A stretch of 64,000 nucleotides of DNA from Tetrahymena thermophila SB210 (taxonomy: Eukaryota > Ciliophora > Oligohymenophorea > Hymenostomatida > Tetrahymenidae). Of the stretch, positions 38,909 through 64,000 are shown one piece after another; the stretch's first letter is position 1, and each line of letters opens with the position of its first letter. Both the position numbers and the translations under genes were made by a program. The notes beneath the pieces are model-generated. The model saw nothing but the letters and a program-made list of their open reading frames with translations, was not told the origin of the DNA and did not search any database. Where the stretch lies: positions 172,827 through 236,826 of the forward strand of contig NW_002476542.1 in assembly GCF_000189635.1 (NCBI RefSeq), read 5' to 3'.

Positions 38909-41900
38909 ATGAATTTTAAAGCATCATTTTATTAACTAATTTATCTTCTATTACAATATGTATTATTAGGATAGACATCACAGTGTCCATAATTTTCTAT
39001 TGAGCACAGTAAATAAATAAATATTAAATTTATATATATATATATAACATTATTTCTTTCTATAATATAAGTGACTCGTTTCTTCGATAATCAAAGTATA
39101 AAAGGCTATCTAAAAATACCACAAACAAATCTTATCTTAATAAATACTATTTCAAATGATGCTAATAAACTCAATGATATATCTAACGTAGTGTATTACA
39201 ATGACATATCGAACAATTAAGACAACATCATTAATGCAATCAAGAGTAAATTATCCATAAGTTGTATTGACTTTAAAATTTTTATTAAACAAATTAGCTG
39301 ATTATACAATTTTATAGATGGATTATATTTAGAAAAATAATTAAATTCTAATTGTTAGTCCAAATCAGCTAATCGCAGCTAATGTTTATACATTATAGAT
39401 TATAAACTTTCTCATATTTAGATCCTCAACAGGTTTAAGCCTTATTTAGGACACAAACTTAGCTATTTTAACCACTCGAAGTTGCAAATTCTACATAATA
39501 GATGTTGTTTAATTTAAAGAGATATATTCTGAAGATAGTTGCTATTATATGTATGATGTCGGTAATATACTCTTTTACCCAAAAACATTTGTACTAAAAA
39601 ATGGGGAAGTTTTTATAGCAATAAAAGATTATTATGGATATCAAGCTTGGTTTTTAAATTTAAAAACATACTAACTTGAATATCATAATTATGTCCCATA
39701 ACCATGTATACTATATTTTAATCTTATTTAAATTTTTTAAATTCTAAATTTTTTAATAGAATACTTAGGGTATAATGATATAGATTTCTATTATGATTGG
39801 AATTTGCTATTTATAGTTGGCAATTATTACATGCTTAACATAGTGTAAATTCAAGAATTAAGTTCGAATAAATTTACTGTATTATAAAATTGGAGTAGAA
39901 ATAAATTATATTAATTATATATTTATATGATTATTTTTTATAAATAGATTTGATGGATTGGGGCAATAGTTTTTTGAATGTTAAAATTATTTAATAAATT
40001 CAATAATCTTAATCCAGTTTTAGCTTATTTACGAGTGACCCTTACTCCTTATTCAGACTTGATTTTACTATTACTGGAAATTAGTTAACATAGTCAATTG
40101 ATTCTATTAATTTTGTATGGGCTACTTAAGGTTTTCCTGTATAATATTAAGGATATTAGTACACTTAATGGTATTATGTGTAAGAAAACAAATAGTTATT
40201 TATACCTATGAGTAATTATTTTTTAGGCTAGACATATAGTTTTGTTTTTTCTTATCAAGATAATAAAATCATCAGGCGTTAATGTAAAATATATTAAATA
40301 AAATAATATTTTTAAACTGGTGTTTAAAATTAAAATATCTTTTATTTTGGGGAGAAGAAAATACTAACAATCTTCCTTAAAGGAGTTGTTAAATTAAAAA
40401 AAAGTTTTTTGCTATATTTCTTTGAATATATTTTAAAGTAATTACCTCCCCCTACCCATCTCTTTGTTTTTTAAATAATTATTGTTTTTAAAACTTAATA
40501 TTTATGATCCTATTTAATAAATATTTTTTTAAAATATTTAACTCTTTTTAATTTTAATGATAAATTAATTTTTTTTATAAAAAGTGTATTATTCTAATGG
40601 ATGGACAAAAATATTTATAGTTAATCAAAATGAGATAAATTATTTTGTTTCAGCAAGTTATAATTAAATTATAGTTATATAAGATACAATTCATGGTGAA
40701 GTTATATGGCAAACAAAATTATCAGATGATTTAATGTACGGAAAAGAAAACTTTTTTATTTAAGTTCAAAATTACCCTAAAGGTTTTTTTGTAATGATGA
40801 ACTCTGGATCAATAAGCTATATAGATATATTTGCAAATTAAAATATTTAGGTAAATTTATTCATCCTCAAAGATAAATTGAAATAATTATATTTTAAGAG
40901 TTTTAAATTAAGTTAAATTAACCTTTCCTTGAACAGAATGAGTTATGTACTGACTTCATATATCGACTAAGAAAACATTCTTTGGTTTATTATTGGTTTA
41001 CCATACAAAGACAATTAGGAAAATTTTTTATTCTGGATGATTGATTTTAAAAGTTAAAAGGCATAAGCTTTATTTTCAGATAATGTAGATGATAATTAAA
41101 ATAAAACATGTTACGCTTTATATTCAGAAAAAAATAACTCACTTGTAGGCTTAGATGTATTAGGAAATGTATATGTATGGGATTCACTAAATCAATATAA
41201 ATTTAAATATAAAAAGACAATAAGTAAATAATTTAATATTTATTTATATTAACTAAAAGATATTACTTTAATTAAAAATAAGCTAAATACTAATGTTATT
41301 AATCGGTAATGGGATAATTATACAATGATGGTAACAATGTATATTTAATTGTAGTATGTGATGATCATAAGGTAATTAGTTTTAATATAGATACAGAAGA
41401 TACTTAACTACTAACTCAGATGTCTTCTGACTCAATTAATATTAATTCTTTTGAAGATATTTAATTGATAGGTATTGGAGAAACTGATACAGGAAATGTA
41501 TTTTTATTCAGGTATAATTAAAGTAGCAAGAATTTTAAGTCCTTTTTTAAAATATAAACTATTAAATACAACGATAAGCCATTGAATTTAAGTTATTTAC
41601 CTGATTCTCAATAGCTCTTTATCTAATACTACTACAGTAACAACTTTTTACCAATAGGAATGTGCTTAGAAAATGTTTAAAATTGTTTGAATTGTTAGAT
41701 GGATTTTTATTTTAACACATCTGAAACTTAACAGTTGGATAATTTATTTGGGCTAGGAACGAGTCAATCTCCATTTTTAAGTTCATCAAATCTAATAACA
41801 ACATTTTTACTGGTAAATTAATTCATTAAAATAAATAATAATTAAAATCTTCAGTTTAAAATTTAAAACCTTTTCTTATTAATATTTGATTAAAATACTT

Positions 41901-44900
41901 TATACGGTTTTTATCATAGGGGGAGGGGATGTGAGGTTGTATAAGAAACTCATTTTTTTTATTAAATTTTGAAAAAATTTAAATATAATAAATTATTCAT
42001 ATTAAGCCATTAAAATTAATCCTTGGCATAAATATACTAAAAACAAAATTTTTTTCCTTAATTGACAATAAATAAATTCAATTTAAAATAGCTTGACTTT
42101 AATAAAATGTTTACATTAATTAAAGAGGAATAATGAGAATTTTTAGCAATTTTTTTATATTTTCTTATTAATATTAATAAAATATAAAATTTAATTTCTT
42201 TAAAAATTTTCTATTATTTAAAAAATAATCAGGCACAGCAATATAATTAATTAATAGATGGAATTTAGAAGATTAAAATTAATATTTATATTCATGCAGA
42301 AAACTCTTTTAATTTATTTCAAGAGTTACTAGATATTTAATTTAGTAATGTAATATAATTAATGATAAAGAGTACAGACACTTTAAAATAATCTTAAATA
42401 AATATTACAAATAGCCTTTAATTTAATTAATTTAGCTCTTTAAATTTATCAAATATAATATTCTATTTTAAATATGTGGATAACTAAATTTATTAGTGTG
42501 GATTATAAATAAATAATATTATTGAAATAGTGAATATTGATAATATCGACTAATAATCTTCAAATGCTACAATTTCTTAAAATTGCAATTCTTTTCAAAT
42601 AAGTAATTCCTCTGTAACTTTGTAAAATCTAAATATATCAAATAAAGATTTTTCTTAATTTTAAGATTTAATTTAAGTTAGCGATTCAAAGTAGGTAAAT
42701 CTTAATATAAATATTTAAATAATTAGACTTAATATTTTCTATAATAATTAAAAAGCTTGTGTTAGAAAATCTCATTCTTTAAAATTCAATTTTAAACAGT
42801 TAGTTTAGCATTGTAAAGCAGCTAAGTGAAACTAGTATAACAATCAAATAGATGATTATTCAAAACAACACTTGCGATATAAAATAAAACTCAAATTCAC
42901 AGTATGTAGGATAACTTTTTTAAGCAGGTTAATTTAATGTAAGTAACATGCAAATCATAGGAAATCAATTTTGTAACTCAAAGATCTTTTCAACTATTAG
43001 CAGTATAAACCAGAAAAACTATAATATTTTGTTTGATAACATTATCATACAAAACAACAAATTTTATACAATAGCTTCACATCTATTTTATAACGCAATA
43101 TATACCTTTAATCCATTAGCAGGTTGTCTATAATTTATTGAAGTTAATTAAATTAACCTGAATTTATTTAATTCTAGCTATATTAATGCTGTTGATAATT
43201 CTATCATAATTATCTAAAATATCAATTACAAAAACAATTTGATTGAATTAAATAATATTGAAATATTTAGTTCTTCATTCATATAAACCTTATCAAATTC
43301 TTATTCTAACCCCTTGTTCATTTCTTGTGATTAAGTTTCTGATATTTAAATATTAAATTCTAATTTTTATGACAATATTCTAAATGGTTTCGTCAATTCT
43401 TTAACTTAGTCAACAACAGCTATTTAGATAATAAATTCACAAGGATATATGCTTATTTAGGACACATAATTTAGCAATTCTAAGTCAGATTCTCACTATA
43501 ATTTTGCATTTATATAGTGCAACAACACTTATATAAATAGATGCTCATTTGCAAATTCTTCATATGATTTATTAGATAACACAGCATTATTCATACAATA
43601 AGGAGGATGTCTAAGAATAAAATCAAATACATTTCAATTGAATAATTCTAAATTCTTTTAATCAACTGCTAGTATTGCTTCTTTTGTTTACCTAGAACCA
43701 CTAAGCAATTAAATGGATAATATATTCTTCAATACTTCATTTTCTTAAGGTTATTCTCATTTTGATGGAGGAGCTGCTTACATAAATTCTTAAAATTCTT
43801 ATATAAGCTTGAGTATAAATAAGTGTAATTTTACTGATATTTACTCACTTTATCCATTATCAAGTGTTATTTCAATTAAGTAATTTATTATTTTAAAAAA
43901 AAAATTAAATAAAATTTTTAATTTAAAGGAATCAAGCAACATAAGGCCAGTTAGGAAGACTCTATAATTTCAATATAAACAATGCTTTATTAACAAATAT
44001 TTTCGGAAACACAGATTCTATTTTTTTTAATGCAAATGATGCTGATATCAGTATTTAAAATTTAACATAATTCAATAATTTGTTGAATTATGATTACCCT
44101 ATTCAATTTTCAAAAATACTTGCTCCAGATAATTTATAAGCATGCACATTTATTAATTCTGAAAATTCAAAAATTACAATAAATAATACAAATTTTTATG
44201 ATTTGATTTCTTCGAAGGAATCGACTCTACCTCTTTTAATTAAATCTATAAATTCAACTATTTTAGTAAAAAAATTAAATGCAACTAAATGTTAATTTTT
44301 GCCAAGTCTAATAGATATAACATAGAGCAAATTAGAGATTAGTCAAAGCAGGTTCAATAATATGTTTTAAATAGAACCTCAAAGAATTCTTCAAAATAAT
44401 GCTATAACTTAATAAATTAAAAATAACTCATTGATTTAATTAAACAGATCTAGTATTTTGATTAACGATAACTCATTTTTTAGTGAAATTATTTGCTCTT
44501 AAAATTGTTATGGCTCATGTTTATCTTTAGTTTACTCAAATTTTAATATATAGAACACCTAATTCATATAAAATAAAGTAATTTATTTTCAATAAAGTCT
44601 AATATTTACATTTTTATATCATAGGCAGTTAATGGAGGAGCAATAGCGATCTTAGGAAATGATCAAATGATTAACTTAATTTAAAGTTCAAACTTTTTTT
44701 AAAACACTGCAATAAAAAATGGTGGAGCAATTTATTTGTAAACTGATATAAATGATGTAATAATCTTTTCAAATATAATTTTTTTAAAAAAAGGCTAAAT
44801 TAAATATAATACTAAATCAATATTATTTTACTAATATTTTTATTACTTAAAATTAATTTTAATCCATTCAATTTATTTTTAATTTTAGATTTTCAAAATG

Positions 44901-47856
44901 TAAATTGTTGAATCTTAATTTCGTGAAAACTCAGCTGATTAAGGTAATGGAGGTGCTTTTTATTTATTGGCATAAACTGTTAACTCAAGTTAATAATAGA
45001 TAATGATTTAAAATACTGAAATTAGTAATAACAAGGCTTAAATAGGTGGTGGAATTTATAATTAAGGAATAAACCCTAAAATAGAATTAAGTTTACTCTC
45101 ATTTAATTATGCCTTGTACTATGGAAATGATTAGTTTTCTTATCCATCATAACTTTTTAATGTCAACTATCAAAGTTTTTAACATTAAAATTAGAATCAA
45201 ATTATATTTAATAATTTTAAAAGTGGTGATAAATTTCCTAAATTTATTTTTGAGCTAAGAGATAATAGCAGTAAACCTGTAATATATACTGAAGGATAGC
45301 AAATTACAGCTCAAATAAGAATAAGTACAAAGACAGCAAATTCTTCTTAATATTATTTTAGAGGGAATACTATCCAATCAATTGATCCTATCAAAAATAT
45401 TTTTATATTTAATGATCTAGATTTGATAGGTATTCCTAATTCCTACTTGATAATAGAATTTATTTCAGATTCAATAAAGATATTTAACAATTAAACATAA
45501 ACATTTGAAAATAATTATACATTTGAAGTGTATGTTAATTTTAGGAATTGTGTTTATGGAGAGATCATTAATTAGTATAACAATTACAAAGAATGTTAAA
45601 CTTGTGAAGATGGTAAATATTCATTAGACTTTGAAGCATGTTATTCCTGTCCTTCTGGAGGATAATGCTAAAATGGAGTAGTTGATCTCTAAAGTGGATT
45701 TTGGAGAAAAGAAGAGCACAGTTTATAAATATTATAATGCTATAATCGATTATAGAATTGTATAGGAACATCATTTGGAAATAATGTTTGTCATTAAGGA
45801 AATATCGGACCGCTATGCGAAGAATGTGATGTAATTAATTAATTAATTTGATGATATTTTTAAAAATGTTTATTTATACAAAGATTCATGGAGAATTTTG
45901 GTAGAAAAGCTATACAAGAAGTTCAAAGTATTAGTGTGAGTTATGTGAAAGTATAAGATATGATTTTTGGAAACTAGCTCTTACTTTTCTTTGGATAACA
46001 ATTTCTATATTTTTGACTGTTAAGAATGATGAAAGTTTTTTCTTAAAAAGAATATTGATAAACAACATTCGTAAAAAATCTAAAAAAATCCAAAGTGAAA
46101 GTATTAAAATTAGTAATCTAAGTTCATAGGTTAGATTAAATAAGCTTGAAAACCCAAAATAAAAAATTTTATCTAAAAATTATATTAAGATTTTTACAAA
46201 CTATGTTTAAATAGTAAGTACTACTGTCACATTCAACTTAAACGTTGATTCATGTAATTTATTTCTTATTTTTTTTAATTATATAAAAAACTATTATTTA
46301 TATTAATTTTATATATAAAAAATAGATTTTGTAGAAGTTTCTACTTATTTAGGGAATCCAATAAAAACGTCTATAGATTTTTTAGAATGTTTACTTAAAG
46401 ATAGTTAAATACAAATACCTTTAATTTACAAGAAGCTATTTTTTTCTTTAATTTCTCCTTTTATTATTTTAGCATTATTTGCTTTTATCCTGAAATTTAA
46501 CTAAAAATTTATAGATAAATCAATAAAATTTAAAATACACTAACTCTATACAGGATCAATATTCTTGTTTTTGTATCTTTAACCAGATTTAGTTTCTTAA
46601 ATGATAAGTCTGCTTTCATGTAGATAAATTGGGGACACCTCTTACATATTAAGCAATCTCAATTATGAATGCTATACAGACAGCTACAAATATTATAGCT
46701 TAAGCTTAATACTTCCTTTCTTAATTATATGGGTTATAATAATTCCTTTTGCTCTTCTAGTTTATATTACAAAGAATAAAAAGAATTTAGATAGTTTATT
46801 TATAAATATGAAATTTGGCTTCTTGTACAGAGAGTACAAAAGCAATGTTTATTATTGGGAATTCATAAAGATAGCATAAAAAATATCAATAATACTTGTA
46901 CTTAATCTTTATTATCAGAATTAGATTGTAAAAGGCTGTATTATAACATTGATTATAACAGGCTATGGATTATATGCAAATAAATTATAACCTTACATAG
47001 AAGATAACTACAATTAATTAGATAGCTTATCCACAAAGGTATGCGCTTTAACAGTATTTCTTTGCGTTTTGATAAACGGAAATGATTACAATTATTTATT
47101 GATTACTTCTTTAACTATAATCTTAATAATTAACATTTATTTTGTTATAGCCATTTTAATAAGAGTAATTGATAGTAAGAAACATAGTTTATTAAAAATA
47201 TTATCTAATATGAAAAATAAATTATTGAATAAAAAAGAACAAAAAATTGAAAAAAAACAAATAAATAAAGAATTAAAGAAAAAGATAAGAAGAATTCTGT
47301 TAAATTATTAATCATTTAGTAAAAACAATAAATTGAACATCAATCTTCTTATATATAATGATCAACAAAGTAATTTTTATTAAATTAAGTAATTAATTTA
47401 ATTACTAACAAACTTAATTTTTAACGAATAAGTAGACTTAAAAGAAAACTCAAACGTGTAAATGCTTAATCTATTCTCATAACTTGATAAATAAGACAAA
47501 GTAGCATATAATAGCTAGTGTTCTAATTTGCAATCTTGTTCACCTTTATATAACAAAATATGGGAGACCTAAAGTCAAAATTTCATAATTTCTTAAAGCA
47601 AAAGAGGTTTATTTATTTATTTTTAAACTATTTATAACATTTTTAAATAAATATAAAAAAAGTATAATTGGCAGAAACAGAAACTAAATTAATGCAATTC
47701 ACCAATAAAATTGATAAAGCATAAATAAATTCAAATAAAAGAATAAATACTTAAAATCCATTTCATAAAAGATCTAAAATATAGTAGTTAGATATTGAAT
47801 AATAAGTTAATTAAGATTTTTAAGTATCAGAGCTAAGTATAGAAAATAATTATTGA
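38909..47856 (+). CDS. Giant beta-helix membrane protein, array copy 1 (2475 aa)
   Basis: Sixteen exons: 38909-39008, 39072-39245, 39298-39705, 39760-39894, 39948-40283, 40585-40850, 40899-41223, 41283-41812, 42233-42694, 42756-43879, 43929-44577, 44625-44756, 44889-45830, 45884-46253, 46326-47606 and 47663-47856. They sum to 7428 nt with every phase consistent. A signal peptide (LIYLLLQYVLLG) leads to ~740 residues of propeller-like repeats (for example GNVYVWDSLNQYKFKYKKT). Next is an Asn/Ser/Ile-rich beta-helix (residues ~760-1640) with NGGAIAILGN, NGGAIYL, NGGAFYLL and GGGIYN near its end. A Cys-rich module (CQTCEDGKYSL, SCPSGGQCQNG, GNIGPLCEECD) prec­edes about eight membrane segments and a basic then Gln/Asn-rich tail. 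The modular order suggests a cell-surface protein; ligand and function are unknown. Confidence 0.88.
39031..39046. repeat. TA dinucleotide repeat in intron 1 of copy 1
   Basis: Eight TA units in the first intron. Copies 3 and 4 have shorter TA runs at the same place, so it has expanded or contracted since duplication. Confidence 0.8.
40284..40584 (+). other. Intron 5 of copy 1 with complementary G- and C-rich boxes
   Basis: A 301-bp intron, long for this gene. It holds TTTTGGGGAGAAG at 40345-40357 and CCTCCCCCTACCC at about 40445-40457, which can pair through GGGGAG/CTCCCC. The same paired layout recurs in copy 3 (about 51616 and 51711) and copy 4 (about 61383 and 61481). See findings. Confidence 0.7.
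41813..42232 (+). other. Intron 8 of copy 1 with a G-rich box
   Basis: The longest intron of the gene (420 bp). It contains GGGGGAGGGGATGTGAGGT at 41919-41937. The box is kept in copy 3 (about 53184-53203) but absent at the matching position of copy 4 (about 62910). Confidence 0.7.
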
Positions 47857-48791
47857 TGAATAATTACAAAAAAATAAAAATATTATTGATATCTACCAAA
47901 TTTAATTTTATATTTATAATTTACTAATTAAAATTGATTATAATTTCATATTCTAAATTGGTTTACTTACTTGCTTAAGAACATATAATATATTTTGAAT
48001 TATTAGTGGTTATATGTATTTATAATTTTTATAGTATTTTTAATATGGATATTTCTAATTTCATTTTATCTAAAAAGACCTTAGCTTAGCCTTTAGTATT
48101 TATTGTATCTGTAGTTTTTGCGTTTGGAACTGTTTCCTGTCATTTATAAAATTATATTTATTAAATTTTAGTTTTAGTAAACTACTTATTTTTTTTTCCT
48201 ATTATGAACTCTAAAATTTTATAAAACTATTATATTTTTGAAATAAAATTTTAATATTATGTTATATGCTCATATACACCACCCGCAATTGAAAAATATT
48301 CAAGACTTTTGGTCCTATAAGGATACTTTTTGGATTTTTAATAAATTGAAATTTTAATCTATTAAATATGATAGTATTCGGCTTTTTTATATCTAAAATA
48401 CTCAATAAAATTATTCATAAATTTTTAATTGATAGGATTTTAAGTTAATATAAAATTAAATTTGTCTAAAATATTCCTACGAATAATTAACAAGTATTTT
48501 TGATAATTTAAAAGTGATTAATTTAGAATTAATTAGAAGGATTAAATTTTGTTATTACAAGATAAGTAAATTAACTTATTGAGAAAAAAATAAGCCAATT
48601 ATTTGATAACTTCTGTTTTTTATTCAAGGTAGTTCGAACTAGTATTTTATTAGTTTAGTCAATGATTTTCTAAAAATTTAAGCTTACAAACAAACATATT
48701 CATAATTAAAAAAGTTACAAGTAAACAAAATTAGATTAACAAGCAGAATTTATTAAAATCATGAGAGGGAAAGACAAAACAGAAAAGAAGA
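47857..48791. other. Spacer between array copies 1 and 2
   Basis: The left part matches the 3' flank of copy 3 (from 59409), and the right part (from about 48330) matches the 5' flank of copy 3. The spacer is therefore part of the duplicated unit. No other gene seen. Confidence 0.6.
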
Positions 48792-49550
48792 AAGAATTTC
48801 AAAGCGTCATTTTTATAACTAATTGATTATTTATTAAATAATATATTATAATACATAACATAATTTCCATACTTTTCTTTCAGTAAAGTAAATTAAAAAT
48901 ATTAAAAATTTATATTATTATTTCTAATATTTAAGTGTCTTATTTATTCCATATTCAAAAGATAAGGCTATTTACAATTACCACAAACAAATCTTATGTT
49001 AATAAATATTATTTCGAATGATATTTATCAAATTAATGATATATATATAACTTATTGCATTAGGACGATGTATCAAAAAATTCATGCAACATTACTATTT
49101 AATCAAAAGTAAATTCTTCATAAATTGTGTAGACTTTAAAAATTTTTTTGTATTGTAGATGATTATACAATTTAATAATAGAATATATTTTAAATATAAT
49201 TAAATTCTAATTGTTAGTCTAAATAATCAGCTAATAGCAACTAATATTAATACTTTACAGATAATAAAGTTTCTTTTCGTTAGATCTTCAATAGGTGTAA
49301 GCCTAATTTAATGCACAGAATTAACTATTTTAACCACTCGAGCTTGCAACTGCTTGATGCTGTTTATTTTAAAGAGATATATTCTGAAGATACTTTCTAA
49401 TATAATTATAATGTTGGAAATATACTCACTTATCAAGAGTGCGTTAGTTTTTGTAGCAAATAAAAGATTAACTTGGATTTCAAGCTTGGTTTTATTTAGC
49501 AATATACTAACTTGAATTTCATAATTATATTGAAAAACAAGCATAAGTAG
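48792..49550 (+). pseudogene. Decayed 5' fragment of the array gene (copy 2)
   Basis: Aligns with the first three exons of copies 1 and 3, including the stretch encoding QIL(I)VSxxQLIA(A/T)N. The start codon is lost (AAG where the others have ATG). Most of the end of exon 1 is missing. A 2-base deletion at about 48961-48966 (ATAAGG against ATAAAAGG) shifts the frame, which then meets TGA. Similarity ends near the end of exon 3, and everything downstream (propeller, helix, membrane part) is absent. It is the relic of an array member, most simply left by unequal recombination. Confidence 0.85.
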
Positions 49551-50188
49551 TAACTCATTAATAATTATCATAAATTATTTATTATATTTACTGTAACATA
49601 TTAATTATTAAAATTTGTAAAAATTCTCCGTTGGCGCTATATATTTTATGATTATGCGAATTTAAAATTTTTTAGATTTTTAATTCATTGTTGTCTTAAA
49701 TACTAAAAATGACAGTAATAGGTTTTTTATTTCTAATATACTAATTAAAATTATTTTTAAATTTTAAACTTAATAAATAAGATTTTAAATTTAGTTTTGA
49801 GTAAGTTATTTTAAAGTTAATTTTGTTTAGAATAATCCTACAAAGAATTAACATCTATTTTTAAAAATTGACAATTTATTACTTTAGAATTAATTTAAGA
49901 TGGAATTTTTTATATTACCAGGTATGTAATTTAAGTTATTTAGAAAAAATAAGCCAAAAATTCATTTGAAACCTACTGTTTTTTATTTAAGTTCAAACTA
50001 TTGAAAATATGAATTTTTTAGTATTTTTTTATGTCATTTACTAATTATTATGGTCTTATGATTTTCTAAAAATTAAATCTTGCAAACAAACATATTTGTA
50101 ATTAAAAATAATCAAAAGTTAAAAAATTAGATAAAGCAAGCAGAGTTTTTTAAGAGATAGAGAGAGAAAAAAAAAGAAAAATAAATAA
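49551..50188 (+). promoter_or_regulatory. Duplicated 5' flank, array copy 3
   Basis: From about 49670 it matches the flank of copy 2, and from about 49735 the flank of copy 1. It contains the conserved box at 50137-50160 (AAGCAGAGTTTTTTAAGAGA-like), 30-50 bases before ATG 50189. No other gene seen in this interval. Confidence 0.55.
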
Positions 50189-53100
50189 ATGAATTTTAAA
50201 GCATCATTTTTATAAATAATTTATATTCTATTACATTATTTCTTATTAGGATAGACATCACAGTGTCCATAATTTTCTATTCAGCATAGTAAATAAATAA
50301 ATATTAAATATATATAACATTATTTCTATTATTTAAGTACCTCGTTTCTTCGATAATCAAAAGATAAAAGGCTATTTAAAAATTCCACAAACAAATCTTA
50401 TCTTAATAAATACTCTTTCAAGTGATGTTTATCAACTCAATGATATATCTAACGTTGTGTATTACAATGACATATCGAACAATTAAGACAACATCATTAA
50501 TGCAATCAAGAGTAAATTATACATAAGTTGTATTGACTTTAACATTTTTATTAAACTAATTAGCTGATTATACAATTTTATAGATGGAGTATATTTAGAA
50601 AAATAATTAAATTCTAATTGTTAGTCCAAATTAGCTAATCGCAGCTAATGTTTATACATTACAGATTATAGACTTTCTCATATTTAGATCTTCAACAGGT
50701 GTAAGCCTTATTTAAGGCACAGATTTAGCTATTTTAACGACTCGAGCTTGTAAATTCTACATAATTGATGTTGTTTATTTTAAAGAGATATATTCAGAAG
50801 ATACTTGCTATTATAATTATAATGTTGGTAATATACTCCTTTATCCAAAAACGTTTGTACTAAAAAATGGGTAAGTTTTTATAGCAATAAAAGATTCTTA
50901 AGGATATCAAGCTTGGTTTTTAAATTTAACAACATACTAACTTGAATTTCATAATTATATCCCAGACCCAGGTATAATATATTTTAATCATATTTAAATT
51001 TTTTTAATTCTAAATCTATAAATAGATTAAATAGGGTATACAGATATAGAATTCTATTATGATTGGAATTTGCTATTTATAGTTGGTGATTATTACATGC
51101 TTAACATAGTATAAATTCAAGAATTAAGTTCGAATAAATTAACCATATTATAAAATTTGTGTATAAATAATTAATTTTAATTGTATATTTATATGATTAT
51201 TTACTTAAAAAATAGATTTGATGGATTGGAGCAATACTTTTTTGAATGTTAAATTTATTTAATAAATTCAATAATCTTAATCTAATTTTAGCTTATTTAT
51301 GAGTGACTCAAACTCCTTATTCAGACTTGATTTTACCATTATTGGAAATTAGTTAACATAGTCAATTGATTCTCTTACTTTTGAATAGGCTACTTAAGGT
51401 TTCCCTGTATAATATTAAGGAAAATAGTACACTTCATGGTATTATTTATAAGAAAACAAATAATTATATATACCTATGAGTAATAATTTTTTAGGCTAGA
51501 CATATAGTTTTATTTTTTCTTATCAAGATAATATGATCATCAAGCGTTAATGTAATATATATTAAATAATTTCATATTATTAAACTGAGATTTAAAATTA
51601 AAGTATTTTTTATTTTGGGAGGAGAAAATAATAACAATCATTTTTAATGTGGTCATTATATTAGTAGAGTTTTTTATAATATTTAATTTAATATATTTAA
51701 AGTAATTATTACCTCCACCCTACCCATCCCTTTTTATTTTAAATAATTTTTTGTTTTTAAAACTTTATAATTATGATCCTATTTAATATATATATTTTTA
51801 ATATTTAATTAATTTTTACTTTAAAAAGTAATCTAATTTAAAAAAAAATAGTTTATTATTCTAATGGATGGACTAAAATATTTATAGTTAATCAAAATGG
51901 GATAAATTATTTTGTTTCAGCAAGTTATAATTAAATTAAAGTTATGTAAGATACAATACATGATGATGTTATATGGCAAAAGAATTTATCGGATGACGAA
52001 ATGTATGGAAAAGAAAACTTTTTTATTTAAGTTCAAAATTATCCTAAAGGTTTTTTTGTAATGATGAACTCTGGATCAATAAGCTATATAGAGATATTTT
52101 CAAATCAAAATATTAAGGTAAATTTATTAAACTAAAAAGATAAATTGAAATAATCATATTTTAAGAATTTTTAATTAAGTAAACTTAAACTTTCCTTGAA
52201 CAGAATGAGTTATGTACTGACTTCATATATCGATTAAAAAAACATTCTTTGGTTTATTATTGGTTTACCTTACAAAGACAATAATGAACAACATTTATTC
52301 TGGATGATTGATTTTAAAAAACAAAAGGCAAAAGCTTTATTATCAGATAATAATGATGATAATTTGAATAAAACATGTTACGCTTTATATTCAGAAAAAA
52401 ATAATTCTCTTGTAGGATTAGATGTATTAGGAAATGTGTATGTGTGGGATTCACTAAATTCATATAAATTTAAATATAAAAAGACAATAAGTAAATAATT
52501 TATCTAATATTAATTAAAAAAATATTACTTTAATTAAAAATAAGCTAAATACTAATGCTATCAATCAGTAATGGGACAATTATACAATGATGGTAAAAAT
52601 ATATATTTAATTGTAGTATGTGAGGATCATAAGGTAATTAGTTTTAATATAGATACAGAAGATACTTAATTACTAACTCAGATGTCTTCTGACTCAATTA
52701 ATATTAATTCTTTTGAAGATATTTAATTGATAGGTATTGGAGAAACTGATACAGGAAATGTATTTTTATTCAGATATAATTAAAGTAGCAAGAATTTTCA
52801 GTCCTTTTTTAAAATATAAACCATTAAATACAAAGACAAACCATTAAATTTAAGTTATTTACCTGATTCTCAATAGCTCTTTATATAATACTACTACAGT
52901 AACAACTTTTTACCAATAGGAATGTGCTTAGAAAATGTTTAAAATTGTTTGAATTGTTAGATGAATTTTTATTTTAACACATCTGAAACTTAACAATTGG
53001 ATAATTTATTTGGGTTAGGAACTAGTCAATCTCCATTTTTAAGTTCATCAAATCTAATAACAACATTTTTGCTGGTAAATTAATTTATTAAAATAAATAA

Positions 53101-56100
53101 TAATTAAAATCTTTAGTTTAAAATTCAAAATCTTTTCTTTATAATATTTGACTAAAATAATACTTTTACATAGTTTTTATCATGGGGGAGGGGGATGTGA
53201 GGTGGTATATGAAACTCATTTTTTTAATTAAATTTTGAAAAAATTTTAAATCTAATAAAAAATTCATATTAAGTCATTAAATTAATCCCTGGCATAAATA
53301 TACTAATAACAACCAAAATTTTTCCTTAATTCACTTTTGATAAATTCAATTTAAAATTGTTTAATCTTAAAAAAAATATATTTTAATTAAAGAGGGATAA
53401 AGAGAATATTTAGCAAATATGTTTTATTTCCATATTAAAATTAATAAAATATAAAATTTAATATATTTAACAATTTTCTTTTGTTTAAAAATTAATCAGG
53501 CACAGCAATATAATTAATTAATAGATGGAATTTAGAAGATTAAAATCAATATTTATATTCATACAGAAAACTCTTTTAATTTATTTCAAGAATTGATAGA
53601 TATTTAATTTAGTAATGTAATATAATTAATGATAAAGAGTACAGACACTTTAAAATAATCTTAAATAAATATTACAAATAGCCTTTAATTTAATTAATTT
53701 AGCTCTTTAAATTTATCAAATATAATATTCTATTTTAAATATTTGGATAACAAAATTTATTAATGTGGATTATAAATAAATAATATAATTGAAATTGTAA
53801 ATATTGATAATATCGACTAATAATCTTCAAATGCTACAATTTCTTAAAATTGCAATTCTTTTCAAATAAGTAATTCCTCTGTAATTTTGTAAAATCTAAA
53901 TATATCAAATAAAAATTTTTCTTAATTTTAAGATTTAATTTAAGTTAGTGATTCAAAGTAGGTAAATCTTAATATAAATATTTAAATAATTAGACTAAAT
54001 ATTTTTTTTATAATAATTAAAAAGCTTGTTTTAGAAAATTTCATTCTTGAAAATTCAATTTTAAACAGTTAGTTTAGCATTGTAAAGCAGCTAAGTGAGA
54101 CTAGTATAACAATCAAATAGATGATTATTCAAAATAACATCTGCGATATAAAATAAAACGCAAATTCACAGTATGTAGGATAACTCTTTTAAGCAGGTTA
54201 ATTTAATGTAAATAACATGCAAATCATAGGAAATCAATTTTGTAACTCAAAGATATTTTCAACTATTAGCACTATAAATCAGAAAAACTATAATATTTTG
54301 TTTGATAATATTATCATACAATATAACAAATTTTACACAATAGCTTCACATCTATTTTACAACGCAATATATACATTTAATCCATTACCATAGCATTCTC
54401 TATAATTAACTAATATTTACTCTTCAGACAATTAGTATATTCCTAATATATAAAATGAATATACAAATAATTTAAGTATAACTTCATTAATACTACTAGA
54501 TAAGATAGCAATTATAACTGCTAAAAACATAACATCTAAAAATTAAGACTAAATCGCTATTTTAAGAGCGTCATAATCTTAGGTTAGTTAATTATAAAAC
54601 ATATCATGTCTTAATGACTAAAATTTTTATTAAAATTCAAAAAATACTCAATAAACATATTCAGGTTGTCTATAATTTATTGAAGTTAATTAAATTAATC
54701 TGAATCTATTTAATTCTAGTTATATTAATGCAGTTGATAATTCTATCATAATAATCTAAAATATCAATTACAAAAACAATTAGATTGACTTAAATAATAT
54801 TGAAATATTTAGTTCTTCATTCATATAAACCTTAGCAAATTCTTATTCCAACCCCTTGTTCATTTCTTGTGATTAAGTTTCTGATATTTAAATATTAAAT
54901 TCTAATTTTTATGACAATACTCTCAATGGTTTCGTCAATTCATTAACTTAGTCAACAACAGCTATTTAGATAATTAATTCGCAAGGAGATATGCTTATTT
55001 AAAACACATAATTTAGCAATTCTAAGTCAGATTCTCTCTATAATTTTGCATTTATATAGTGCAACAACACTTATATAAATAGATGCTCATTTACAAATTC
55101 TTCATATGATTTATAAGATAACACAGCATTATTCATACAATAAGGAGGATGTCTAAGAATAAAATCAAATACATTTCAATTGAATGATTCTATCTTCTCT
55201 TAATCAACTGCTAGTATTGCTTCTTTTGTTTACCTAGAACCACTAAGTAACTAAATGGATAATATATTCTTCAATACTTCATTCTCTTAAGGTTATTCTC
55301 ATTTTGATGGAGGAGCTGTCTACATAAATTCTTAAAATTCTTATATAAGTTTGAGTATGAATAAGTGTAATTTTACTGATATTTACTCAATTTATCAATT
55401 ATCAAGTGTTGTTTCAATTAAGTAATTTATTATTTAAAAAAATCAATTAAATAAAAATTTTTAATTTAAAGGAATCAAGCAACATAAGGTCAGTTAGGAA
55501 GAATCTATAATTTCACTATAAACAATGCTTTATTAACAAATATTTTCGGAAACACAGATTCTATTTTTTTTAATGCAAATGATGCTTATATCAGTATTTA
55601 AAATTTAACATTCAATAATATGATGAAGCATAATTATCCTATTCAATTTTCAAAAATACTTGCTCCAGATAATTTATAAGCATGCACATTTATTAATTCT
55701 GAAAATTCAAACATTACAATAAATAATACAACTTTTTATGATTTGACATCTTCGAAGGAATCGACTATACCTCTTTTAATTAAATCGATAAATTCAACTA
55801 TTTTAGTAAAAAAATTAAATGTAACTAAATGTAAGTTTTAACCAAGTCTAATAGATATCACATAAAGTAAATTAGAGATTAGCCAAAGCAGGTTCAATAA
55901 TATATTCTAATCAAGCCCTCTAAGGATTCTTCAAAATAATGCTATAACTTAATAAATTAAAAATAATTCATTGATTTAATTAAACAGATCTAGTGTTTTT
56001 ATTAATGATAACTCATTTTTTAGTGAAATTATTTGCTCTTAGAATTGTTATGGCTCTTGTTTATCATTAGTTTACTCAAATTTTAATATATAGAACACCT

Positions 56101-59100
56101 AATTCATTAAAAATAAAGTAATTTATACCCAATAAAATCTAATATTTACATTTTTATTTCATTAGGCAGTTAATGGAGGGGTAATAGCGATCTTAGGAAA
56201 TGATCAAATGACTAACTTAATTCAAAATTCAAGCTTTTTTGAAAATACATCAATAAAAAATGGTGGAGCAATTTATTTGAAAACTGATATAAATGATGTA
56301 ATAATATTATTCAAATACAATTTTTTTTAAAAAAAGCTTAAATTAAATACAATACTGTTTCAACTTTACCGACATTTTTATTAATTTAAAATTAAATTTT
56401 ATCCATTTAATTTATTTTAATTTTAGATTTTCAAAATGTAAATTGTTGAATCTTAATTTCGTGAAAACTCAGCTATATAAGGTAATGGAGGTGCTTTTTA
56501 TTTATTGGCATAAACTGTTAACTCAAATTAATAATAGATAATGATTTAAAATACTGAAATTAATAATAACAAGGCTTAAATAGGTGGTGGAATTTATAAT
56601 TAAGGATTAAACCCTAAAATAAAATAAAGTTTGATTTCATTTAATTAGGCTTCATACTATGGAAATGATTAATTTTCTTATCCAACATAACTTTATAATG
56701 TCAACTATCAAAGTTTTTAACATTAATAAAATTAGAATTAAATTATATTTAATAATTTTAAAAGTGGTGATAAATTTCCTAAATTTATTTTTGAGCTAAG
56801 AGATAATAGCAGTAAACCTGTAATATATACTGAAGGATAGCAAATTACAGCTCAAATAAGAATAAGTCAAAAGACAGTAAATTCTTCTCAATATTATTTT
56901 AGAGGAAATACTATCCAATCAATTGATCCTATCAAAAATATTTTTATATTTGATGATCTAGACTTGATAGGTATTCCTAATTCCTACTTGATAATAGAAT
57001 TTATTTCAGACTCAATAAAGATATTTAACAATTAAACATAAATATTTGAAAATAATTATACATTTGAAGTGCATGTTAATTTTAGGAATTGTGTTTATGG
57101 AGAGATCATTAATTAGTATAACAATTATAAAGAATGTTAAACTTGTGAAGATGGCAAATATTCATTAGACTTTGAAGCATGTTATTCCTGTCCTTCTGGA
57201 GGATAATGCTAAAATGGAGTAGTTGATCTCTAAAGTGGATTTTGGAGAAAAGAAGAGCATAGTTTATAAATATTATAATGCTATAATAGATTATAGAATT
57301 GTATAGGAACATCATTTGGAAATAATGTTTGTAATTAAGGAAATATAGGACCACTATGCGAAGAATGTGATGTAATTAATTAATTAATTTGATGATATTT
57401 TTAAAAATGTTTATTTATACAAAGATTCATGGAGAGTTTTGGTAGAAAAGCTATACAAGAAGTTCAAAGTATTAGTGTTAGTTATGTGAAAGTATTAGAT
57501 ATGATTTTTGGAAACTGGCTCTTACTTTTCTTTGGATAACAATTTCTATATTTTTTACTGTTAAGAATGATGAAAGTTTTTTCTTAAAAAGAATATTGAT
57601 AAACAACATTCGCAAAAAATCTAAAAAAATCCAAAGTGAAAGTATTAAAATTAGTAATCTAAGTTCATAGGATAAATCAAATAAGCTTGAAAACTAAAAA
57701 TAAAAAATTTTATCTAAAAATTATATTAAGATTTTTACAAACTATGTTTAAATAGTAAGTACTACTGTCACATTCAACTTAAACATTGATTCATGTAATT
57801 TATTTCTTATTTTTTTTAAATTATATAAAAACTATTATTTATATTAATTTTAACCAAATAAAAAATAGATTTTGTAGAAGTTTCCACATATTTAGGAACT
57901 CCAATAAAAACGTCTATAGATTTTTTAGAATGTTTTCTTAAAGATAGTTAAATATAAATACCTTAAATTTACAAGAAACTAATTTTTTCTTTACTTTCTC
58001 CTTTTATTATTTTAGCATTATTTGCTTTTATCCTGAAATTTAACTAAAAATTTGTAGATAAATCAATCAAATTTAAAATACACTAACTCTATACAGGATC
58101 AATTTTCTTGTTTTTGTATCTTTAACCAGATTTAGTTTCTTAAATGATCAGTCTGCTTTCATGTAGATAAATTGGGGACACCTCTTACATATTAAGCAAT
58201 ATCAATTATGAATGCTATACAGACAGCTACAAATATTATAGCTTGAGCTTAATACTTCCTTTCTTAATTATATGGGTTATAATAATTCCTTTTGCTCTTC
58301 TAGTTTATATTACAAAGAATAAAAAGAATTTAGATAGTTTATTTATAAATATGAAATTTGGCTTCTTGTACAGAGAGTACAAAAGCAATGTTTATTATTG
58401 GGAATTCATAAAGATAGCATAAAAAATATCAATAATACTTGTACTTAATCTTTATTACCAGAATTAGATTGTAAAAGGCTGTATTATAACATTGATTATA
58501 ACAGGTTATGGATTATATGCAAATAAATTATAACCTTACTTAGAAGATAACTACAATTAGTTAGATAGCTTATCCACAAAGGTATGCGCTTTAACAGTAT
58601 TTCTTTGCGTTTTGATAAACGGAAACGGTTACAATTATTTATTGATTATTTCATTAACTATAATTTTTATAATCAACATTTATTTTGTTATAGCCATTTT
58701 AATAAGAGTAATTGATAGTAAGAAACATAAATTATTAAAAATATTTTCAAATCTGAAAAATAAATTATTACATAAAAACGAACAAAAAATTGAAAAAAAA
58801 CAAATAAATAAAGAATTAAGGAAAAAGATAAGAAGAATTCTGTTAAATTATTAATCTTTTAGCAAAAATAATAAATTGAACATCAATCTTCTTATATATA
58901 ATGATCAACAAAGTAATTTTTATAAATTTAGTATTTAATTTAATTACTAACAAACTTAATTTTTAACGAATAAGTAGACTTAAAAGAAAACTCAAATGTG
59001 TAAATGCTTAATCTATTCTCATAACTTGAAAAATAAGACAAAGTACCATATAATAGCTAGTGTTCTAATTTGTAATCTTGTTCACCTTTATATAACAAAA

Positions 59101-59408
59101 TATGGGAGACCTAAAGTTAAAATTTAATAATTTCTTAAAGTAAAAGAGGTATATGTTTATTTATTTATTTTTAACTATTTATAACATTTTTTAAATAAAT
59201 ATAAAAAAAAGTATAATTGACAGAAACAGAAACTAAATTGATGCAATTCACCAATAAAATTGATATACCCTAAATTAATTTAAATAAAAGAATAAATACT
59301 TAAAATCCATTTCATAAAAGATCTAAAATATAGTAGTTAGATATTGAATAGTAAGTTAATTAAGATTTTTAAGTAACAGAGCTAAGTATAGAAAATAATT
59401 AATTATGA
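50189..59408 (+). CDS. Giant beta-helix membrane protein, array copy 3
   Basis: Follows copy 1 exon by exon, with the same splice signals. It starts at ATG 50189-50191 and ends at TGA 59406-59408. No frame break was seen in the exons I translated, so it looks intact. It should encode roughly 2560-2570 aa; this is estimated from the alignment, not counted. The main difference from copy 1 is 273 extra bases (91 codons) in the beta-helix at about 54388-54660. Intron sequences have drifted more than exons. Domain order is the same: signal peptide (ending YFLLG), propeller-like part (GNVYVWDSLN), beta-helix, Cys-rich module with SCPSGGQCQNG, membrane segments and cytoplasmic tail. One helix motif differs (NGGVIAILGN for NGGAIAILGN). 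Function unknown. Confidence 0.86.
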
Positions 59409-59947
59409 ATATACACAAAAAAATAAAATATTATTAATATTTACCAAATTTAATTTTATATTTATAATTTACTAATTAAAATGGATTATAATTCTATTTT
59501 CTTAATCGGTTTACTGCTAAAGAGTATATAATATATTTTGAATTACAAATGGTTATATTTATGTATAATATTTATAGTATTTTTTATAAAATATTAAATT
59601 CATTTTATCTAAATTACCCTAGTTTAGCCTTATTAGTTATTGTATCTGTGATTTTTGTATTTGCACTCTGTTTCCTGTCATTTATAAAATAATATTTATT
59701 AAATTTTAATTTTAGTAAAACTATACTATTCTATATTATAAACATTAAAATTTTATAAAACTTTTATATTTTTGTAAAAAAACTTTAGTTTATCTTCCTT
59801 ATACTATAGTCTTATGGTTTTTTAAATATTAAAGCTAACAAACAGACATATATATATATAATTAAAAAAATTATTAGTTAAGAAAATTAGATAAAACAAG
59901 TAGAGTTTTTTAAGAGATAGAGAAGGAGAGACAAAAAAAATAAAAGA
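59409..59947. promoter_or_regulatory. Spacer and 5' flank, array copy 4
   Basis: The left part is homologous to the 3' flank of copy 1 (from 47857), and the right part to the 5' flanks of the other copies. The conserved box is at 59897-59920, about 30-50 bases before ATG 59948. This spacer is shorter than that between copies 1 and 2. Confidence 0.55.
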
Positions 59948-62900
59948 ATGAATTTTAAAGCATCATTTTTATAACTAATTTATCTTCTGTTACATTATGT
60001 CTTATCAGGGTAGACATCCTAGTGTCCAAAATTTTCTATTCAACACTGTAACTTAATAAAAATTAAATATATATAATATCATTTCTATTATTTAAGTGCC
60101 TCGCTTCTTCGATAGTCAATAGATATTAGGTTATCTAAAAATTCCAAAAACAAATATTATCTTAATCAATACTCTTTCGAATAATTAAAATGGAGTTACT
60201 GAAATTTCTAATGTAGTGTATTACGATGACATTACGAAAAATGAAGACAACATCATTAATGCAATCAAGCGTAAATTATCCATAAATTTTATTGACTTTA
60301 AAAATTTTTTTTACAAAATAGCTGATTATACAATTGTATAAATGGAGTATATTTAGAAAAATAATTATATTCTAATTGTTAGTTCAAATCAGCTAATCGC
60401 AGCAAATGTTTATACATTACAGATAGTAAAGTTCCTCATATTTAGATTAACAACAGGTGTAAGCCTTATTTAAGGCACTGACTTAGCTATTTTAACCACT
60501 AGAGCTTGTATATTCTACATAATTGATGTTGTTTAGTTTAAACAGATATACTCTGAAGATATTTGCAACTATTACTATGATGTTAATAATTTTATTAAAT
60601 ATCCAAGAACATTTATCCTAAATAATGGGCAAGTTTTTATAACAATAAAAGATGATTTTGGATTTCAAGCTTGGTCTTTAAATTTAACAACATACTAACT
60701 TCAATAACATAATTATCTCCCAGAAAAATGTATACTATATTTTAATAATATTTAAATTTTTTAAATTCTAAATTTATAAATAGAAACAGTGTAGCATTAA
60801 AAAACATGGTATACAGATATAGACTTCTATTATGATTGGAATTTGATATTTTTAGTTGGCAATTATTACACACTTACCATTTTATAAATTGGAGATTTAA
60901 GTTAGAATTAATTTACTATATTACAAAATATGAGTAGAAATGATTTATTTTAATTGTATATTGATATAATTATTTTCTTTAAAAATAGATTTGATGGATT
61001 GGGGCTAAAATTTTTTGAACGTTTAATTTATTTAATTTACTGAATAATCTAAATAGAATTTTAGCTTATTTATGAGTGACCCTTACACCTTATACAGACT
61101 TGATTTTACCATTATAGGGAATTAGTTAACATAATCAATAGATTCTCTTACTTTTGAGTTTGCTTAGGATTTTCCTGTATATTATTAAGGAACTTAGTAC
61201 ACTAAATGGTATTACGTTTAAGAAAACAAATAGTTATTTATACCTATGAATTATAATTATTTTTTCTAGACATAAAGTTTCGTTTTTTCTTATCAAGAAA
61301 ATAAAACTATATGGCGTTAAGGTAATATTTATTAAATAATTTCATACTTTTAACTAGGTTTTTAATTAAATTATCTTCTATTTTGGGGAGGGGAAAATAC
61401 CAATAATTGTTATTAATGAAGGAGTCGTCTTTCAATTTAATTAGTTAAGATTAATAGTAATTTAAAATTAATATTTTACTTCCCCTCTCTTCATATTTTT
61501 AATTTTTAAAACTTAATAATTGACGTCTTAGATATTAAATATTATTTAACTCATTTTTACTTTAAGAAATAAATTATTTTTTTAAAAAAAGCTTACTATT
61601 CTAGTGGATGGACAAAAATATTTGCAATTAATCAAAATAATATAAATTATTTTGTCTCATATAGTTACTATTAAATTTTAGTTATATAAGATACAATTGA
61701 TGGTCATATTATATGGAAATCAAATTTAATACCTAATGACAGCATATTTGCAAAAGAAAACTATTTTATGTAAGTTCAAAATTACCCTAAAGGTTTTTTT
61801 GCATTGATGAAGTCTCAATAAATAATCTATATAGAGATATTTTCAAATCAAAATATTTATGTAAGTTAATTTATTCAGTCTCAAAGATAAATTAAAATAA
61901 TCATATTTTAAGAGTTTTTAATTAAGTTAAATTAATCTTTCTTTGACGAGAATGGGTTATGTATTGACTTCGTTTATGGACTAAGAAAACATTCTTTGGT
62001 TTATTACAGGTTTACCTTATAAAGACAATAAAGAAAATTTTTTATTCTGGATGATTGATTTTAAAATTTAAAAGGCAAAAGCTTTGTATTCAGATAATTT
62101 AGATGACAATTTGAATAAAACATGTTACGCTTTATATTCAGAAAAAAATCATTCTCTTGTAGGATTAGATGTATTAGGAAATGTTTATGTATGGGATTCA
62201 CTCAATTAATATAAATTTAAATATAAAAAGACAATAAGTAAATAATTATTTTTTATTAACTTATTAACTTAATTAAAAATAAGCCAAATACTAATGTTAT
62301 AAATCGGTAATGGGTCAATTATATAATGATGGCAACAATATTTACTTAATTGTACTGTGTGATGATCATAAGGTAATTAGTTTTAATATAGATACAGAAG
62401 ATACTTAACTACTAATTTAAATGTCTTCTGATTCAGATCATATTAATTCTTTTGAAGATATTTAATTGATTGGTATTGGAGAAAGCAATACAGGAAGTGT
62501 ATTTTTATTTAGATATAATTAAAATAGTAAGAATTTTGAGTCTTTTTTTAAAATATAAACCATTAAATACAATGATAAAACATTAAATTTAATTTATTTA
62601 GCTGACTCTCAATAGCTCTTTATCTAATACTACTACAGTAACAACTTTTTACCAATAGGAGTGTGCTTAGAAAATGTTTAAAATTGTTTGAATTGTTAGA
62701 TGGATTTTTATTTTAACACAACTGAAACTTAACAATAAGATTATTTATTTGGGCTAGGAACGAGTGAATCTCCATTTTTAAGTTCATAAAATTTGATAAC
62801 AACTTTTTTACTGGTAAATTAATTTATTAAAATAAATAATAATTAGAATTTTAAGTTTGAAATTTAAAACCTTTTTCTTGACAAAAAGATACTTTAAAGA

Positions 62901-64000
62901 ATTTTTATCAAGGGTATATAAAACACATTTTATTTATTAAATTTTCTATAATTTAAAGATTTTTTAATAATTTATAATTTTTATTTTGAAATATTTCATA
63001 ATTTAAATTAAATTATTGGTCTATCTATTTATTTCCAAAACTAAGATTCATTTTTATTAATAAAAAAATTAATTAAAATTAAAAAAATAAAAATATTAAG
63101 GATTCAGGATAAAAAAGCTTAAAATATAAAAATTAATTAAAAAAAGTTTTAATCAAAGATTTAATTTTTAATTTATATATCTAAATTTATTTAATTTTTA
63201 GAGACTTTTGATAAAATGAGTTTTACAAAGTTTGACCTTAAAAATAATTAACCATTAAAAAGGTATTATGAGAATAATGAAAAAATTTTTTTATTTCCAT
63301 ATTAAAATTCATAAAATATGAATTTCTTTAAAATTTTCTATTATTTAAAAAATAATCAGGCACAGCAATATAATTAATTAATAGATGGAATTTAGAAGAT
63401 TAACATCAATATTTATATTCACACAGAAAATTCTTTGAGCTTATTTCAAGAATTGATAGATATTTAATTTAGTAATGTAATATAATTAATGATAAGAAGT
63501 GCAGATCCTTTAAAATAATCTTAAATAAATATTACAAATAGCCTTTAATTTAATTAATTTAATTCTTTATATTTATCAAATATAATATTCTATTTTAAAT
63601 ATTTGGATAACTAAATTTATTAGTGTGGATTATAAATAAATAATATAATTGGTATTGTTAATATTGATAATATCGACTATTAGTCTTCGAATGCTACATA
63701 TTCCTAAAATTGCTATTCTCTTCAAATAAGTAATTCCTCTGTAACTTTGTAAAATCTAAATATATCAAATAAAGATTTTTCTTAATTTTAAGATATAATT
63801 TAAGTTAGTGATTCAAAGCAGGTAAATCATAATATTAGTAATTAAAAAATAAACTAAATATTTTTTTAAAATAATTAAAAAGCTTGTGTTAGATAATTTC
63901 ATTCTTGAAAATTCAATTTTAAACAGTTAGTTTAGCATTGTAAAGTAGTTAAGTGAAACTAGTATAACAATCAAATAGATGATTATTCAAAACAATATCT
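59948..64000 (+). CDS. Giant beta-helix membrane protein, array copy 4 (partial)
   Basis: Starts at ATG 59948-59950 with the same signal-peptide exon (LIYLLLHYVLSG) and follows copy 1 through exons 1-9 into exon 10, where the window ends. The exons I translated are open. Propeller-like segments such as GNVYVWDSLNQYKFKYKKT are conserved, but overall it is more divergent from copies 1 and 3 than those are from each other. Examples are extra residues at the exon 4 start (about 60783-60808) and a different intron 8 (about 62817-63359) without the G-rich box. The C-terminal membrane part is outside the window. Confidence 0.84.

Follow-up and report, generated by a model that had tools for sequence, protein, structure and literature searches.

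Which function can be expected of the giant membrane proteins that are encoded head to tail at 38.9-64.0 kb of the window, as we call the whole 64,000-nucleotide stretch of Tetrahymena thermophila DNA analysed here (C33:172827-236826, within a genome of 101.0 Mb and 445 contigs)? The answer that we favour, tentatively and with slightly less than even confidence, is that the array encodes giant surface receptors which probably act as cation channels of the TRP-like type, with a head for recognition whose tip was diversified after tandem duplication. The gene models, the composition of the products and the divergence between the copies bear on this answer to different degrees, and they are considered in this order.

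Gene models, array and gene family

Comparison of the window with itself revealed three copies on the + strand (approximately 38.9-47.9, 50.2-59.4 and 59.9-64.0 kb; copies A, B and C in Table 1) and, between A and B, matches to an N-terminal relic at 48.8-49.8 kb, which bears out the three long head-to-tail copies and one relic described in the initial annotation. The gene structure given there had to be revised: instead of 16 exons and a product of 2475 aa, the curated models have 18 exons and products of 2341 aa (A) and 2433 aa (B). The model of copy A was curated from the output of a simple home-made gene finder, and the exon borders of A were then mapped onto B. Read with the ciliate code, whose sole stop TGA leaves the genes open in this genome, A and B have the same 18-exon plan, every intron is GT..AG and there are zero internal stops. 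Because the donor of the last intron is unusual (GTC in A, GTT in B), the tails of A and B are unsure by a few residues. The exons of A and B are 94.7% identical (6651/7023) and the introns 88.9% (1679/1888), a difference which fits constrained genes; in the same comparison the GC content was 23.7% in exons and 13.8% in introns. A and B are real, constrained genes.

Table 1. Positions of the array genes, their parts and the distant relative, numbered from the first letter of the window unless a contig position is given
Feature	Position	Strand	Model or evidence
Copy A	38909..47856	+	18 exons, 2341 aa, 271 kDa, terminal TGA; curated splice model, in frame
Copy A, signal peptide and propeller-like region	38909..41722	+	exon 1 to roughly the middle of exon 8; approximate end
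Copy A, Asn/Ser-rich beta-helix region	41723..45536	+	exon 8 to part of exon 13; start approximate
Copy A, Cys-rich module	45537..45830	+	the module of B matches it; 11 Cys invariant across alignment A2
Copy A, eight-TM domain	45884..47164	+	exons 14 and 15, intron 46254-46325; family profile E 2.5e-122; hydropathy
Copy A, tail	47285..47856	+	exons 16 to 18; gene model
Relic, N-terminal piece, probably broken	48795..49780	+	tblastn with B, 33.8% identity, residues 2-185
Copy B	50189..59408	+	18 exons, 2433 aa, 282 kDa; exon borders mapped from A, in frame
Copy B, Cys-rich module	57078..57371	+	family alignment A2
Copy B, eight-TM domain	57425..58707	+	intron 57795-57868; A1 profile E 1.2e-122; hydropathy
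Copy C	59948..64000	+	exons 1 to part of 10; hint-guided model; cut by the window end
Intron of copy C in the C-D comparison	62814-63359
Copy D	71585-81077		hint-guided, uncurated model
Copy E	about 84.4-93.4 kb		hint-guided, uncurated model
Copy F	from 95.0 kb; TM exon ends C33:275819, about 103.0 kb		hint-guided, uncurated model
Remnants	48.8-49.8, 67.6-69.2, 70.4-71.4 kb		matched stretches with stops, some perhaps from introns
Distant single-copy relative	6855..12386	+	signal peptide, beta-helix, Cys module, TM domain; start approximate

In the relic, the overlapping tblastn matches contain 2 and 6 stops, for which introns are a possible cause. The assembly has 2508 bases of N directly after copy C at 64000 (C33:236827-239334), and the array continues downstream to at least 103 kb with three further copies (D, E and F) and another two remnants. 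It must be noted that in the hint-guided run D and E, and A too, were each split into two pieces, and that D-F may not be intact.

The array belongs to a large gene family. A 330-residue TM query gave 123 matches in the genome; 4 of these were additional pieces of genes already matched, and at least 119 loci on 56 contigs remain, a number which is a lower bound because 121 of 578 candidates were scored. These loci form 61 clusters, when loci on either strand separated by up to 30 kb are joined, and 83 of the 119 share their cluster with at least one other locus, with a median spacing of 12.0 kb (58 spacings). When 30 TM exons were placed in a tree, copy B fell together with D, E and F from the same array (support 100/97). 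With a propeller query 93 matches were found (64 of 162 candidates scored), and a propeller was detected upstream of 26 of the 119 TM loci, all of them within the 35 best TM matches. We considered whether the 26 loci mark a split in architecture and rejected this, since a gene outside the 26, the C389 gene, has the same plan when modelled; the 26/119 looks like a detection limit. The numbers also left a subtelomeric placement unproven: 20 of the 59 clusters on contigs of known length lie within 30 kb of a contig end as against 13.7 expected (KS p 0.054). A pattern for viral relatives matched 15 stretches, none of which was confirmed. The large size of the family is new here, while its kind is partly known.

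Composition of the extracellular part

Each product has the order signal peptide, about 700 propeller-like residues, about 1000 residues of a probable Pmp-type beta-helix, Cys-rich module, eight membrane segments and tail. Of the domain order proposed initially, the Cys-rich module and the eight membrane segments were recovered and the beta-helix is supported by GGA motifs; for the propeller the matches are weak.

The N-terminus of B is hydrophobic at residues 3-21. When six members of the family were scanned with Pfam at E<=10, four propeller models were among the nine families listed: WDR55 in 3 of the 6 members (best 7.5e-4) and three further models in one member each, none of these weak WD40/beta-propeller matches being near a cut-off shown. 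The C389 member matched the WD40-associated Hira (E 0.019). Internal blade repeats were sought in the propeller region by hhalign and none was found. By eye, twelve hairpin-and-turn segments can be picked in the region at spacings of 40 to 63 residues, and in a leave-one-out test, which is biased because the anchors were chosen by hand, these gave a rank of 0.18 compared with a random mean of 0.49 and a minimum of 0.238 over 60 random sets. A sequence search of the PDB with the propeller profile returned one LST8 chain (E 1.7). These weak sequence matches hint at a propeller fold of the tip.

The case for the stalk was made from two kinds of evidence. GG[AGV][IVFL] motifs occur 4 times in A and 5 times in B, compared with at most one in each of 2000 shuffled sequences, F..N..GGA motifs are present in the beta-helix region of copy A, and Chlam_PMP (PF02415) matched with E values of 0.0018 to 0.045, its best score of 18.8 bits lying under the curated cut-off of 20.6. 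The excess of GGA motifs and the sub-cut-off Chlam_PMP matches suggest a right-handed beta-helix of the Pmp type. Compared with B, exon 10 of copy A is shorter by an in-frame loss of 91 residues; an AlphaFold model of this exon, made for B with A, had a pLDDT of 31.4 and was too poor to read. The likeness to the chlamydial Pmp proteins is confined to the F..N..GGA[IV]-like repeats: Pmp proteins end in an outer-membrane barrel, whereas the array products continue into the Cys module and eight hydrophobic segments.

For the Cys-rich module we aligned 27 of the 31 rows found (alignment A2; the near-identical A, L015, L016 and L017 were left out), and 11 Cys are invariant across the 27 rows. TNFR_ELAPOR1_6th was matched by 26 of the 27 rows (best 8.9e-5), DUF7631 by 17 and Ephrin_rec_like by 4, and the profile had no sequence match in the PDB at E<=1.

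The window also contains a distant relative of these genes, at 6.9-12.4 kb (Table 1). It is matched by the profile of the TM alignment (A1; see below) at E 3.7e-37, by that of A2 at E 1.2e-9 and by Chlam_PMP at E 0.0018, and no propeller was seen in it. PF06011 scores 26.3 bits against this gene, below the cut-off, and hmmscan of its ORF gave no TRP match.

It is instructive to compare these proteins with the mating-type recognition complex of T. thermophila. The closest published plan is that of MRC2, a component of the complex with eight TM helices and a pectin-lyase fold (PMC10901506, eLife 2024), matched here, by description, by eight segments and Pmp motifs; the parts of that paper covered mention no propeller in MRC2, whereas the products of the window have a propeller-like head. 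MTA, MTB and MRC1, with a GFR domain and five TM helices (PMC10901506), resemble the array products, again by description, in having an ectodomain, a Cys-rich GFR-type module and a multi-pass membrane end, but the array products have eight membrane segments instead of five. The combination had been thought to be undescribed. For the pair of eight TM helices and a pectin-lyase fold the publication of MRC2 takes this away, and the full four-part combination of propeller, beta-helix, Cys module and TRP-like domain was not found among the literature titles and the beginnings of abstracts listed, a search outside which most subscription journals lie, so that such a description may exist; the parts covered of PMC12029339 and PMC3341644 contained nothing of this architecture.

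By analogy with MRC2 the array genes could be its paralogues, acting in mating-type recognition or in a related check between cells. The core plan here, beta-helix and eight TM segments, would suit such a role, as would the single-copy relative without a visible propeller. The likeness to MRC2 is, however, one of described plan, A and B with 271 and 282 kDa are heavier than the 92 to 212 kDa of the parts of the mating-type complex (PMC10901506), and more than 100 loci would seem well beyond what mating needs. We regard this role in mating as decidedly improbable.

The membrane domain and its link to PF06011

At a threshold of 1.2 the hydropathy profile of B has eight segments (residues 1961-2333), and fewer at 1.5; two of these segments, with 1.26 and 1.37, do not stand out from four ectodomain peaks (1.28 to 1.36) that we take as strands. 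The mean hydropathy of 29 TM exons has seven peaks, which together with one in the preceding exon make eight.

The TM alignment (A1) comprises 30 of the 33 TM exons found, near-copies of A and B being left out. The most frequent Pfam match of its members was PF06011 (TRP), with 25 of 30 at E<=1 and a best value of 2.3e-6; DUF4401, the next, was matched by 3 of 30. The TM exon of copy B itself scored 12.2 bits against PF06011, under the cut-off of 28.5, and at E<=1 no TRP match was obtained with the whole B protein or the longer ORFs of the window, those of A and B included. A search of this genome with the PF06011 profile found 12 places at E<=0.01, 4 of them above the curated cut-off, and none in 14 control genomes. 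Among the 12 are the window's own gene at 10.6-12.4 kb and the family loci C338, C262 and C40. Three of the 4 places above the cut-off were compared with an A1 profile of 29 rows that lacked the distant row from the window: they matched at 2e-29, 6e-28 and 1e-26, over model positions 6-274, 6-272 and 15-270 of 278, the best reversed frame reaching 0.009. The same three places match the Cys module weakly (8e-5 to 1e-3). Through these intermediates the TM domain of the window is joined to PF06011, although it lies itself below the Pfam threshold. What had been called a receptor-like membrane domain thus becomes, by a two-step profile chain, a probable member of the TRP-like superfamily, and this link is new here.

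At E<=1 the TM profile had no sequence match in the PDB, and AlphaFold, given copy A's TM domain together with three further sequences from the window, produced an unreadable model (pLDDT 33.0). The polycystin-1 type receptor-channels, in which a very large adhesive ectodomain sits on a membrane part related to TRP, provide an analogy only, and Pfam found no polycystin domain in B or in the longer ORFs of the window.

The fungal members of PF06011 include Flc, Pkd2 and Spray, the Pkd2 of fission yeast among them. They share with the array, by the profile chain, the membrane domain; in place of their small luminal ML-like domain the array products carry an ectodomain of about 1900 residues. Some proteins of the family (Flc) were first called flavin carriers, and this, together with the score of copy B well under the Pfam cut-off, would agree with a protein that is no channel at all, but a scavenger or feeding receptor in which the TRP-like domain is transporter-like or a scaffold. 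Against such a receptor speaks the Pkd2 of fission yeast, a TRP-like calcium channel for which activation by membrane tension and promotion of calcium influx are described (PMC11277609, as far as that source was covered), and we consider such a non-channel receptor quite improbable.

Divergence of the copies and the possible function of the tip

The rate of protein change varies along the genes. Between A and B, w (dN/dS) was 0.59 in exons 2-5, 0.30 in exons 6-8a, 0.12 in exons 8b-9, 0.21 in exon 10, 0.35 in exons 11-12, 0.44 in exon 13a, 0.06 in the Cys module and 0.19 in the TM domain. The corresponding values between B and D were 0.58, 0.42, 0.30, 0.15, 0.61, 0.67, 0.35 and 0.15, with 0.84 in the tail, so that in this pair exons 11-13a and the tail have a higher w than the head. 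Exons 2-5 of the head evolve faster than the pooled exons 8b-10, Cys module and TM domain, a slow set that was picked after the w values were known (p 5.8e-5 for A-B, 2.6e-7 for B-D).

The head is most clearly variable between C and D, the youngest pair, which was chosen after a survey of 15 pairs and for which the p values are uncorrected. The two copies were aligned directly and five gap-adjacent codons were left out. In exons 2-5 dN was 0.086 and dS 0.039 (64.3 nonsynonymous changes at 793 sites, 7.7 synonymous at 200), giving a w of 2.19 (CI 1.13-6.14, p 0.032). The value was 1.74 for exons 1-5 (p 0.088), 1.14 for exons 6-8 (p 0.44) and 0.14 for the neighbouring exons 8b-9. Across introns 1-7, C and D differ at 18 of the 576 sites aligned (3.1%; 5/306 in the six short introns and 13/270 in intron 5), and nonsynonymous change in exons 2-5 exceeds that at synonymous and intron sites taken together (p 3.7e-5). 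Exons 6-8 show no clear excess over the same sites (p 0.056). Intron 8, which lies beyond the head, is more diverged (33/389, in a gappy alignment), and when it is added the excess in exons 2-5 weakens to p 0.005. No excess of replacements was found between A and B, where 60/833 replacements are below the intron divergence of 36/319 (p 0.031).

Diversifying selection on the propeller-like tip is, on these figures, probable in the C-D pair, though not proven, and this signal is new here. The view that the array encodes a variable family of surface receptors is supported to this extent: the variability is clearest in the propeller of C and D, and w exceeds 1 in that pair alone.

Tandem arrangement, relics and the diversification of the head in C-D are also what one would expect of variable surface antigens, that is, of coats or decoys that are expressed one at a time and in which the membrane domain is a mere anchor. 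Tetrahymena is known to change its surface antigens by means of the Ser genes, but the Ser antigens, as described in the parts of PMC4136848 covered, are Cys-rich, GPI-linked proteins without eight TM helices, whereas the array products end in an eight-segment membrane domain and a tail. Moreover, the TM domain belongs to the more constrained regions (w 0.15-0.24 in A-B and B-D), more than an anchor seems to need. We think a role as antigens unlikely. A receptor whose partner varies would be expected to combine a conserved, channel-like membrane part with a tip that changes fast and is carried on a long stalk.

If the array products are such channel-coupled receptors, the propeller-like tip would be held out from the cell surface on the long beta-helix stalk and would bind a partner, which may be another cell, a food organism or the matrix. 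The Cys-rich module would connect the stalk to the eight-TM domain of the PF06011 TRP-like superfamily, where binding, or a pull at the tip, might open or regulate a cation conductance, probably for Ca2+, and the tail would couple to the cell interior. The gating by force or ligand is proposed by analogy with the tension-activated Pkd2 (PMC11277609, seen in part). Once the genes had been duplicated in tandem, diversifying selection acting on the tip would produce a repertoire of specificities.

A wider proposal can be made for the whole family, which we consider rather unlikely in its full breadth: more than 100 receptors, each with a TRP-like channel gated by a rapidly diversifying propeller that is mounted on a beta-helix mast, would form a unicellular system of channel-coupled recognition of own kind, mates, prey or bacteria, its specificities generated by tandem duplication and positive selection, and MRC2 would be the one member with known partners. 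In the parts of PMC6564038 (PLoS Biology 2019) covered, the species-specific genes of Tetrahymena are described as tandem and fast-evolving, and WD40 and GFR Cys-rich domains are listed among their seven top domains. If the proposal were true, it would join three subjects that the papers covered treat separately: the fast-evolving tandem Tetrahymena genes of the GFR type, the mating-complex protein with eight TM helices and a pectin-lyase fold, and the fungal TRP-like channels. MRC2 would gain a candidate mechanism, that of a channel, in place of the part in carbohydrate modification suggested for it (PMC10901506, in the parts covered), and the recognition repertoires of single cells would become directly testable with standard Tetrahymena genetics.

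Relatives outside the array

Besides the tandem array of giant surface-protein genes, the window holds a single-copy relative (Table), in which no propeller is visible. The next best matches of its TM ORF in the genome have 29-33% identity. Within the window, it is also the gene whose plan comes nearest to MRC2 of the mating-type recognition complex as that protein is described in print (PMC10901506).

The distant relatives lie on two other contigs, and all but one of them score above the curated PF06011 cut-off. Two further family matches, C372:8862 and C420:3874, have equal scores and equal query ranges on separate contigs, it is perhaps a single sequence that was assembled twice.

Location of the features (window numbering, except for C176 and C138)
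Feature	Location	Strand	Remarks
Single-copy relative	6855-12386	+	beta-helix, Cys module, TM domain
GAPDH-like gene (by eye)	36.1-37.1 kb		ahead of copy A
Copy remnant	67.6-69.2 kb (C33)		
Second GAPDH-like gene (by eye)	82.9-83.8 kb (C33, downstream of window)		between copies D and E
Distant relatives	C176:438-467 kb		three, all above cut-off
Distant relatives	C138:75-107 kb		two, one above cut-off, one below

Duplication and loss within the array

The positions of the two GAPDH-like genes suggest that the block once duplicated held such a gene. The remnant lacks the Cys and TM parts, and its tail sequence (corresponding to residues 2358-2433 of copy B) lies close behind beta-helix sequence (residues 1328-1633). 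Copy A lacks, in frame, 91 residues of the beta-helix region (43080-43140 vs. 54349-54682 in the window), thus the length of the stalk differs among the copies.
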